From: Verrucomicrobiia bacterium | GTDB lineage: Bacteria; Verrucomicrobiota; Verrucomicrobiia; Limisphaerales; Pedosphaeraceae | Assembly (NCBI GenBank): GCA_036268055.1 | Contig: DATAUW010000041.1 | Span: 124,001-188,000, forward strand | Length of the DNA: 64,000 bases | Reading direction: 5' to 3' | The notes under the pieces: model-generated | Told to the model about the DNA's origin: nothing | Database searches by the model: none | What the model saw: only the letters and a program-made list of their open reading frames with translations | Program-made: the position numbers and the translations under genes | Shown: piece by piece, positions 36,766 through 39,492 of the stretch | Position numbering within the stretch: position 1 is the stretch's first letter | Layout of the letters: each line of letters opens with the position of its first letter

Positions 36766-37791
36766 TTACTTGGTCGGAACCGTCGCAATCGTCTGCAGGA
36801 TGCGGCTGGCGATCTTGTACGGATCACCCTGCGAGTTCGGACGGCGATCTTCCAAGTAACCCCGGTAATCATTATTGACAAAGCTGTGCGGCACACGCAC
36901 CGACGCGCCACGGTTGGCGATGCCATAGTTGAACTTGTCAATGGACTGCGTTTCATGCAGGCCCGTCAGGCGCAGATGATTGTCCGGCCCGTAAACGGCG
37001 ATGTGTTCGTTCTTGTACTTGTCGAACGCCGCCATCAGTTTCTCGAAATATTTCTTGCCGCCTTTTTCGCGCATGTAAGTCGTCGAGAAATTGCTGTGCA
37101 TGCCCGAGCCGTTCCAATCCACGTCCACGCCCAGCGGTTTGCAATGCCAGTTGACATCCACGCCGTAGGTTTCGCACAGGCGCATCAACAGGTAGCGCGC
37201 CATCCACATCTGGTCGGCCGCGGTCTTGGAACCCTTGCCGAAGATCTGGAATTCCCACTGGCCCTTGGCCACTTCGGAATTGATGCCTTCATGATTGATG
37301 CCGGCGTCCAGGCAGACTTCCAAATGCTTTTCGACAATTTCGCGGGCGATGCAGCCCACGTTCTTGTAACCCACGCCGGTATAATATTCACCCTGGGGCG
37401 GAGGGAAACCGCCGCCTTTGGGGAAGCCCAGGGGAGCGCCGTCCTTGTAAAGGAAATATTCCTGCTCATAGCCGAACCAGGCGCCGGGATCGTCCAAAAT
37501 GGTCGCGCGGCTGTTGCTCGGATGCGGGGTCTTGCAATCGGGCATCATGACTTCGCACATGACGAGCACGCCGTTCTTGCGCGTGGAATCGGGATAAACC
37601 GCGACGGGCTTGAGCATGCAATCAGAACTGCGGCCTTCGGCCTGGCGGGTCGAACTTCCGTCAAAGCCCCAGAACGGCAACATTTCGAGCGTGGGAAAAG
37701 TATCAAATTCCTTGATTTGAGTTTTGCCGCGGAGGTTGGGCACGGGTTGATAGCCGTCGAGCCAGATATATTCTAATTTGTATTTCGCCAT
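36766..37791 (-). CDS. glnII: Type II (eukaryote-like) glutamine synthetase
   Basis: 341 residues, the length of GSII; GSI would be ~470. [36 protein letters not shown] and [13 protein letters not shown] are GSII segments with metal, ATP and ammonia-site residues. It makes glutamine from glutamate and ammonia. There is no adenylylation-site loop of the GSI type, so regulation should differ. It is a single-gene unit with a strong terminator. Type II enzymes occur in eukaryotes and in some bacteria such as rhizobia, actinomycetes and PVC-group members. Confidence 0.94.
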
Positions 37792-38141
37792 GTGCGTAAT
37801 TTTGTTTTTGATTTAGCTTCGTATCACGAGAGTAAAAACAAGCAGCCGCTTGTATTGCAATCGGATGTTTCCATCATCAGCAGAGACGATGCCAAATTGC
37901 AAGCGCTTTGCTTTCGCCAATTCAAAAAAAAATGTATTAATGCTTGGCCATCAAATATTTCGACAATCATGGATTTTACACATCGAAGACTTTCTTCCGG
38001 TAAATTTTCTGTTCACATTTGCCCATGCTGTTCAAAAATAATCTTTGAAAATGTCGTCACACATTTCCTCGCTGCAAACCAGCTTTTCAATTCACTTCGG
38101 ATGCGCCATGCTCCGGCGTCGCGCGGCTCGCGGCTATTATT
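37792..38141. promoter_or_regulatory. Divergent intergenic region between glnII and the kinase-like gene
   Basis: 350 bp, AT-rich near glnII (TTTTGTTTTTGATTTAG), where the glnII promoter should lie. A plus-strand open frame crosses the region but its product resembles nothing. On the minus strand TTGGCGAAAGCAAAGCG has GG and GC at sigma-54 spacing but a poor -12 half, so I do not call a promoter. Confidence 0.4.
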
Positions 38142-38528
38142 ATGTTGAAAGTCAAAGACACTCTGCGCTCGACCGTGAATCTCACCTTCGATGGCCGCGT
38201 AATCAAAGCCTACCACGGACCCGACGCTGAAAAGCGCTTCACGCATGAAGTCGAAGTGTTGCGCTTTCTCGAGGCGAAGGGCTGCACTTTCGTCCCGCGC
38301 TTGCTCGAAGCGGACGAAAAACGCCTGCGCATCATCACGACGAATTGCGGCACGCGCGTCGAGCATCTCGATGAAAAACGCACGAAGGAATTATTCGCCG
38401 AACTGGAAACCTTCGGCGTTCGCCACGACGATCCCGATGTCCGCAACGTCACCTATCGCCAATCCGATGGCCGCTTCTGTCTCGTGGATTTCGAGTTCGC
38501 CACCTTGCTGCCAAAACATCACTCATGA
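38142..38528 (+). CDS. Minimal kinase-fold protein (128 residues), overlaps PP2C gene
   Basis: A very short protein that still shows kinase landmarks in order: Lys22 in GRVIKAYHG (ATP lysine), Glu36/Glu38 in FTHEVEVLRFL (alphaC), hinge-like RIITTNCG (63-70), catalytic loop H95-x-D97 with Asn102 (HDDPDVRN, matching HxDxxxxN) and metal-binding D116-F-E in CLVDFEFA. It resembles APH/Kdo-kinase/Bud32-type small kinases, but only ~25 residues separate hinge and catalytic loop, and almost nothing follows DFE, so most of the C lobe is missing. The stop overlaps the PP2C start by 4 bp (ATGA), indicating coupled translation. Activity is untested; it may be a pseudokinase or regulator. Confidence 0.65.
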   Translation: MLKVKDTLRSTVNLTFDGRVIKAYHGPDAEKRFTHEVEVLRFLEAKGCTFVPRLLEADEKRLRIITTNCGTRVEHLDEKRTKELFAELETFGVRHDDPDVRNVTYRQSDGRFCLVDFEFATLLPKHHS

Positions 38529-39367
38529 AATCGCCCACCCCCGCCAATCCCGCAACTTCCCTGAAATGGTTCGGCTGGACGGACCGTGGCAAAGTCCGCG
38601 CGAACAATGAGGACGCTTTTCTCGGCCTGCAATTCGACGCCCGCGAAACGCATCGCCTCGGCAAGGTCGGCGAAGCCGCCGTGCAAAATCACGATTACGT
38701 TTTCGCCGTCAGCGATGGCATGGGCGGCGCGCTCGCAGGCGAATATGCTAGCAAGATCGCCGTGGATAAAATCACCACGCTCCTCCCAAAGGCATTTCGA
38801 CATTCCGCTTTGGGGATGGAGGCCGGCTTCAGCGATTTGCTCACCGAACTTTTTACCGAAACGCATCGCGCCCTCGCCTACCTCGGCAGTTCCTACGAGG
38901 AATGTGCCGGCATGGAAGCCACATTGACGCTCGGCTGGTTCACACCGTTATGGCTTTACTTCGGTCACATCGGCGACAGCCGCCTTTATTACCTGCCCGC
39001 CGCCACCGGCCAGATTCGCCAGGTGACTCATGACGATACTCATGTCGGCTGGCTTTTTCGCAACGGCCAAATCAACGAGCGCGAAGCCCGCACGCATCCG
39101 CGCCGCAACGTCCTTCAAAAAGCGCTCGGCGGCGCTAATCAATTCGTGGACCCGCAAGTCGGCGCAATCGGCTGCGAAGCGGGAGACGTTTTTCTCATTT
39201 GCAGCGATGGCTTGATTGACGGCCTGTACGATCACCAAATTGCCGACCTCATAAAACCTTCCAGGCGCCGAAAAAAAGAAATCAATCCCGCCCAACAACT
39301 CGTCCAGGCCGCCCTCGAAACCGGTGGCCGCGACAACATCACCGCCCTCGTCATCCAAGTGCATTAA
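38525..39367 (+). CDS. PP2C-family Ser/Thr protein phosphatase
   Basis: 280 residues with all core PP2C motifs: GKVRANNEDAF, the metal-binding SDGMGG, GHIGDSRLYYL, ICSDGL and GGRDNITALVI. It is soluble, with no sensor domain, as in Stp/PrpC-type phosphatases that reverse Hanks-kinase phosphorylation. An insert with REARTHPRRNVLQKALG corresponds to the flap region. It overlaps the minimal kinase-like gene by 4 bp, suggesting a kinase-phosphatase pair. A REP-like element lies just downstream. Confidence 0.92.
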   Translation: MKSPTPANPATSLKWFGWTDRGKVRANNEDAFLGLQFDARETHRLGKVGEAAVQNHDYVFAVSDGMGGALAGEYASKIAVDKITTLLPKAFRHSALGMEAGFSDLLTELFTETHRALAYLGSSYEECAGMEATLTLGWFTPLWLYFGHIGDSRLYYLPAATGQIRQVTHDDTHVGWLFRNGQINEREARTHPRRNVLQKALGGANQFVDPQVGAIGCEAGDVFLICSDGLIDGLYDHQIADLIKPSRRRKKEINPAQQLVQAALETGGRDNITALVIQVH

Positions 39368-39401: not shown

Positions 39402-39492
39402 AGTCCCGTAGGGACGACAGATCTTTGCCCAGCAATTTATTGCTGGGTTTAAATCCATTGCAAGCCAAGTCCCGCAGGGACGAAAGAATTCC
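39402..39492. repeat. Three-hairpin REP-like element, copy 2
   Basis: GTCCC-GTA-GGGAC, ACAGATCTTTG, CCCAGCAAT-TT-ATTGCTGGG, a spacer, then GTCCC-GCA-GGGAC and GAAAGAATTCC. Same layout and near-identical sequence as 33247-33340; the 3-nt loops vary while the stems are kept. Confidence 0.85.

Follow-up and report, generated by a model that had tools for sequence, protein, structure and literature searches.

A predicted minimal kinase coupled to a PP2C phosphatase and associated with type II glutamine synthetase in Verrucomicrobiota

The mini-kinase and PP2C genes

The window, a stretch of 64,000 nucleotides from a Verrucomicrobiia contig (DATAUW010000041.1, assembly GCA_036268055.1), contains a gene for a mini-kinase of 128 residues (38142-38528, + strand), which comprises an N lobe, αE, the catalytic loop HDDPDVRN and a DFE motif, followed by a gene for a PP2C/PPM serine/threonine phosphatase of 280 residues (38525-39367, + strand). 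Divergent from the mini-kinase is a gene for a type II glutamine synthetase (GSII, GlnII) of 341 residues (36766-37791, - strand). The 350-bp intergenic region between the two divergent genes (37792-38141) is presumably a control region shared by GSII and mini-kinase, and sigma54-like sites are found in 8 of 58 such divergent regions, where base shuffles give a mean of 4. The glutamine synthetase of the window matches PF00120 and PF03951 above cut-off and PDB entry 4bax as its best structure (E 1.6e-88), and its best NCBIfam model is NF041605, GlnII (E 4.6e-108), with 361 bits and the cut-off of 500 unreached; on these matches it is assigned to type II.

The kinase features named in the preliminary description are all present as it gave them: K22 (codon 38205-38207), the αC glutamate E36 (38247-38249), the HxDxxxxN residues H95 (38424-38426), D97 (38430-38432) and N102 (38445-38447), and D116 of DFE (38487-38489). 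As it had also noted, the chain ends 10 residues after DFE. The overlap with an intact PP2C gene is likewise as it described, with the TGA of the mini-kinase lying inside the ATGA that starts the 280-residue reading frame. The PP2C matches PF13672 (E 1.7e-13, 51 bits against a cut-off of 24) and PF00481 (28.2 against 20.3) and, below the curated cut-off, NF033484 of NCBIfam (E 7.6e-54), and the PP2C motifs DGMGG, GDSR, DG and DN are read in its frame. An Acido-Lenti-1 RNA (RF01687) is found in the gap downstream of the PP2C (39402-39447, - strand; 46.6 bits, above the gathering score).

Mini-kinase orthologues occur in 26 of 58 genomes, which are the window's own genome and 57 relatives, and the other 25 are 53-79% identical to the window protein. 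An orthologous PP2C (E<1e-60, the next best match being 1e-19) is present in exactly the same 26 genomes, so the gene pair is kept in relatives, as a survey proposed in the preliminary description was meant to establish. A phylum sample of 288 genomes, which also includes the window's own, has the mini-kinase in 52 genomes, that is 54 matches minus two weak ones (1.7e-9 and 3e-4). These two were rejected as orthologues: G263 is a methyltransferase with a C-terminal kinase-like stretch, and G324 is a longer protein that is APH-like by reading of its sequence. In the methyltransferase (L142, 633-2000; E 1.7e-9) the C-terminal part that resembles the mini-kinase spans roughly 100 residues, and WbdD-like proteins are methyltransferase-kinases. 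Several MAG records (L030, L071, L027 and others) have public titles that seem unfitting (Akkermansia muciniphila, Klebsiella pneumoniae, Proteobacteria); the loci of L030, L071 and L027 resemble verrucomicrobial ones and perhaps come from mislabelled bins.

In 124 distinct mini-kinases, aligned in 125 rows with the window sequence present twice, the residues K22, E36, H95, D97, R101, N102, Y105, D116 and E118 are invariant, and the loss of K22, D97, N102 or D116 that would have spoken against a kinase is found in none of them. Eight of the 124 are PP2C fusions; the remaining 116 have 124-171 residues, 94 of them 127-139, when lengths are counted from the start of the match, the start codons being unproven. 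Judged from its sequences, the mini-kinase is a real conserved family, far beyond chance, and the same short length and conservation across the family mean that it is not the product of a frameshift or an assembly error.

The coupling of the two genes is also conserved. Among 80 named loci, which are the best 80 of at least 528 confirmed and whose frequencies are not those of a random sample, the PP2C lies downstream of the mini-kinase in 78, the exceptions being L029, which is at a contig end, and L071, which by reading has an Amt gene instead. The two genes overlap by the -4 arrangement in 34 of these loci and in another way in 8, are separated by 0-50 bases in 24 and by a larger gap, with a mechanically assigned start, in 7, and form a single fusion protein in 4; no PP2C start is found in the remaining 3 (L029 and L080 at contig ends, L071 with no PP2C downstream). 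Kinase-PP2C fusions are known from ten loci and eight distinct proteins, some in close relatives of the window's genome (L006/L051, L053/L059 and L054) and others elsewhere (L112, L117, L122 and L124 in one genus of family f55, and L159 in family f53). These natural fusions fit a kinase-phosphatase couple.

Predicted fold and relation to known kinases

AlphaFold2, run with an alignment of 76 sequences (the window and 75 of the 80 named loci, with four fused loci and L031 omitted), predicts for the mini-kinase a kinase fold with pLDDT 93.1 and pTM 0.86, in keeping with the preliminary description, which would have been contradicted by any other fold. The model is built of three strands, a long αC, two strands, αE, the catalytic loop, two further strands and DFE, where it ends. 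It contains the β3 lysine, the αC glutamate, the HxDxxxxN loop and the metal-binding aspartate of the DF(G/E) motif, and lacks the activation segment and the C-lobe helices from αF onwards that belong to a complete kinase domain, no helix of at least four residues being present beyond residue 89. The predicted fold is therefore described here as that of a kinase cut off after the metal-binding aspartate. A model of a natural kinase-PP2C fusion (pLDDT 80, pTM 0.65) came from a poorly built alignment with PP2C rows over kinase columns, and therefore says nothing on the interface of the two domains.

The truncation bears on what the protein does. A mini-kinase without activation segment and later C lobe, tightly coupled and at times fused to PP2C in a way that suggests a physical complex, could be a nucleotide-binding regulatory subunit of the phosphatase that senses ATP/ADP and transfers no phosphate. 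Pseudokinases often lose the equivalents of D97 and N102, whereas both are invariant in the 124 sequences, and in L071 and G308 no PP2C stands beside the mini-kinase gene, which makes such a subunit unlikely. The invariant catalytic residues argue for phosphotransfer, and the mini-kinase is probably an active minimal kinase. Of the two possibilities raised in the preliminary description, a kinase-phosphatase switch or a kinase-derived regulator, the couple itself is borne out by the pairing and the eight fusions, and the invariant residues favour an active kinase over a degenerate regulator.

Foldseek places first the archaeal RNA kinase Ark1 (171 residues, E 2.5e-7, TMq 0.71), and below it CMGC kinases, Bud32, Rio2, CK2 and PRPK. 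In VIA-align, many kinases align over 111-126 residues with nearly tied Z scores of 10.5-12.9, ALK2 and PRPK leading (PRPK 12.8; Ark1 12.2). Bud32/PRPK, RIO and Ark1 have a kinase fold with a reduced C lobe, and the mini-kinase has the HxDxxxxN loop in common with them, but it is about 40 residues shorter than OspG (169) and Ark1 (171), the shortest kinase chains among the 50 best rows of each structure list. It also differs in ending right after DFE and in being paired with a PP2C, the partner of Bud32 being Kae1.

In profile searches, the comparison with APH, Kdo-kinase and Bud32 families suggested in the preliminary description yields a weak match to each. The window protein reaches 20.9 bits over 47 residues with Pfam APH (PF01636; cut-off 23.2) and 17.8 bits with Bud32 (TIGR03724; NCBIfam cut-off 125), both below the curated score, and the Pfam matches also include Kdo, ABC1 and EF-hand models and the NCBIfam matches a lanthionine-synthetase model, all weak. 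The APH model matches 26 of 26 aligned orthologues at E<=0.01 (best 6.4e-9), and the Bud32 model weakly matches 69 of the 76 mini-kinases in the larger alignment (best 3e-6). Pkinase (PF00069) is absent from the four Pfam families matched at E<=1, in a search where HMMER filters drop many weak matches. Searches of PDB sequences gave one match for the single protein (E 1.1) and three for the 76-sequence profile (best E 0.059), none of them a convincing relative, and a library of defence genes gave no match for the mini-kinase and one weak match for the PP2C. The mini-kinase protein sits close to Bud32, RIO, Ark1 and APH, while missing the cut-offs of both models tested, APH and Bud32. Hanks-type kinases such as PrkC and PknB also have adjacent PP2C genes (PrpC and PstP, respectively), but they have a full catalytic domain, in contrast to the 128 residues and the lack of a PF00069 match at E<=1 seen here.

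The top rank of Ark1, together with the weak profile matches to APH, Kdo, Bud32 and lanthionine-synthetase models, would suit a mini-kinase whose substrate, like those of Ark1 and the APH/Kdo kinases, is an RNA or small molecule, with a PP2C whose substrate is unrelated. This is quite improbable, as the partner to which the mini-kinase is coupled, and at times fused, is a serine/threonine protein phosphatase, and a protein kinase is found upstream of other GSII genes, as described below.

Association with type II glutamine synthetase

A strong GSII match is present in 26 of 26 mini-kinase carriers and in 3 of 32 non-carriers (Fisher 3e-13, in a test that, like the other Fisher tests here, treats genomes as independent, which they are not). 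In the sample of 288 genomes, the mini-kinase and a GSII of 71% identity or more occur in one and the same set of 52 genomes; GSII was counted at E<=1e-30, and these genomes, which belong to the taxonomic class of the window, were split from six with a GSII of 57-60%, which lie outside the class and have no mini-kinase. Of the three non-carriers with GSII, two have a protein of the 59-62% type, and the third, G030, has a GSII of 86% in an apparent glnK-amt-GSII cluster (annotated by reading) from which the mini-kinase/PP2C pair is missing. On a PNPase tree of 55 genomes (G006, G037 and G049 have no usable PNPase and were left out), presence of the mini-kinase requires 14 changes, against a mean of 18.5 and a minimum of 11 with random labels, and that of GSII 13 changes, against 18.8 and 12; both are therefore patchy, the figures being rough for a single-gene tree of genomes that are often fragmented.

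The association survives rearrangement. Among the 52 carriers the two genes are divergent within 1 kb in 38, and in five they share a strand at a distance of about 1 kb, the PP2C lying between mini-kinase and GSII in the two that were read (L158 and L159). They are on different contigs in seven carriers, some perhaps through contig breaks, 25 kb apart in one and 1.1 Mb apart in another; in the last of these (G308) the mini-kinase is 1.1 Mb from both GSII and PP2C, and the PP2C is still divergent to GSII. GSII is present at 63 of the 80 named loci, always in divergent orientation, and in 58 it lies within 520 bp of the mini-kinase. At 11 of the remaining 17 loci it is missing from an upstream sequence longer than 1.6 kb, and the link is thus often not one of position. 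The 38 close neighbours are what would be seen if the pair were an ordinary housekeeping unit travelling with the GSII locus; the nine carriers with the genes on separate contigs or 25 kb or more from each other, and the five with another arrangement, make such a bystander role hardly credible. From co-occurrence, GSII is not distinguishable from other members of its regulon, and the genes would also be linked if the locus were transferred as a unit.

The standard example of reversible covalent regulation is bacterial glutamine synthetase, type I of which is controlled through GlnE. Of 26 carriers, 18 lack GlnE and 8 retain it, and it is absent from 5 of 32 non-carriers (Fisher 4e-5), three of which have GSII. 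GlnE was called at E<1e-15 with the direct GlnE model, since GlnD matches this model weakly; an alternative count through extra PF08335 matches leaves 6 of the 32 non-carriers lacking GlnE (p 1.5e-4), the direct model adding a fragment in G053. Type I glutamine synthetase is found above cut-off in 9 of the 26 carriers, as against 21 of the 32 non-carriers (Fisher 0.03). From these distributions, each type of glutamine synthetase tends to travel with its own candidate modifier. The likeness to the GlnE system is that of a proposed dedicated reversible modifier that tends to follow one glutamine synthetase type; the proteins, however, are unrelated, and phosphate would here be added by one protein and removed by another. 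By analogy, the couple may work like the GlnE system, of which it is not a member.

Another possible target is the PII/GlnK-Amt branch, in which the mini-kinase would phosphorylate the T-loop threonine of PII, or another site, and the PP2C would reverse it. Amt clusters are found in 44 and PII clusters in 40 of the 80 loci, on the other strand and at median distances downstream of 1.4 and 3.0 kb; these families were confirmed on one member each, and contig ends limit both counts. The PP2C PphA is described as a phospho-PII phosphatase in the nitrogen signalling of the cyanobacterium Synechocystis, where the PII kinase is called elusive, with SpkB as a candidate, and PII is phosphorylated at Ser49; the relevant passages mention no mini-kinase (PMC10651672). 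The five PII genes in the window's genome (L137-L141), several of which stand by reading beside apparent ammonium transporter genes, encode T-loops that keep Tyr51 and have Thr49, not Ser49. A GlnD-type match apart from GlnE is present in 55 of 58 genomes, among them all 26 carriers; PF08335 itself occurs in 58 of 58, but GlnE also carries this domain, and in G011, G022 and G050 both matches fall in one GlnE frame. With Tyr51 kept and a GlnD-type match in 55 genomes, a PII pathway already exists, and phospho-PII control as in cyanobacteria was set aside as weakened by the same observations. GlnD-type matches are found with or without the mini-kinase, whereas GSII tracks it, and in the window the genes adjoining the mini-kinase/PP2C pair are neither Amt nor PII, so that PII is a rather unlikely target.

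A possible phosphorylation switch on nitrogen assimilation

An even chance is given here to the reading in which an active mini-kinase and the PP2C together make up a dedicated switch that controls nitrogen assimilation by reversible phosphorylation and most likely has GSII as its target. The mini-kinase would add phosphate to GSII or a partner and the PP2C would remove it, with the balance of the two responding to nitrogen or energy status, and GSII would thereby be given a counterpart of the GlnE adenylylation of type I glutamine synthetase. Since the mini-kinase is without the C lobe on which substrates usually bind, a docking surface would have to come from GSII or the PP2C. That the mini-kinase is paired with a PP2C, and at times fused to it, points to a protein substrate and to reversibility, and the GSII association and frequent lack of GlnE argue for glutamine synthetase, or something acting with it, as the target; from the association with GSII, a nitrogen-assimilation protein is likelier to be that target than the PP2C itself. 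The analysis shows the gene structure, the predicted fold, the conserved catalytic residues, the pairing and fusion of the genes, and an association with GSII in distribution and position; catalysis, substrate, direction of control and signal of the couple are inferred.

Plant glutamine synthetase is of the same type as GSII. Its modification by phosphorylation and 14-3-3 binding is reported in PMC3430217, and rhizobial GSII is described as primarily transcriptionally regulated in PMC5127829. Among the literature matches listed by title, no description of a mini-kinase/PP2C couple was found.

Outside the class, each of the six GSII genes (L144-L149) is directly preceded on its own strand by the gene of a Hanks-type kinase; five of these kinases were scanned and match PF00069 at E 4e-41 to 1e-36, and the sixth (G214) was read from DNA. 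The six genomes belong to two families and represent at most two independent cases. For GSII in G008 and G054, which have the window gene order, no kinase was found within about 2 kb among the neighbours, part of which were scanned. A bolder reading is that in the class GSII has its own covalent-modification cycle, in which a kinase of about 125 residues is completed by docking on GSII or PP2C and replaces GlnE adenylylation, and that a tie between GSII and a kinase has arisen at least twice with unrelated kinases, the others lying elsewhere in the phylum. This is a tentative proposal and more doubtful than not, and less likely still is its variant in which AMP is transferred, as by SelO-type proteins, and the transfer is reversed by a PP2C fold. 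If the GSII cycle were real, it would be a second solution, for GSII, to reversible covalent control of glutamine synthetase, and it would show how small a working kinase can be when the substrate-binding C lobe is missing.

Fifteen GSII positions of all residue kinds separate 98 carrier sequences from 8 others, a separation confounded by lineage, so the six Ser/Thr/Tyr positions that separate the same sequences are only candidate sites: S188, T237, Y248, S303, Y309 and Y312.
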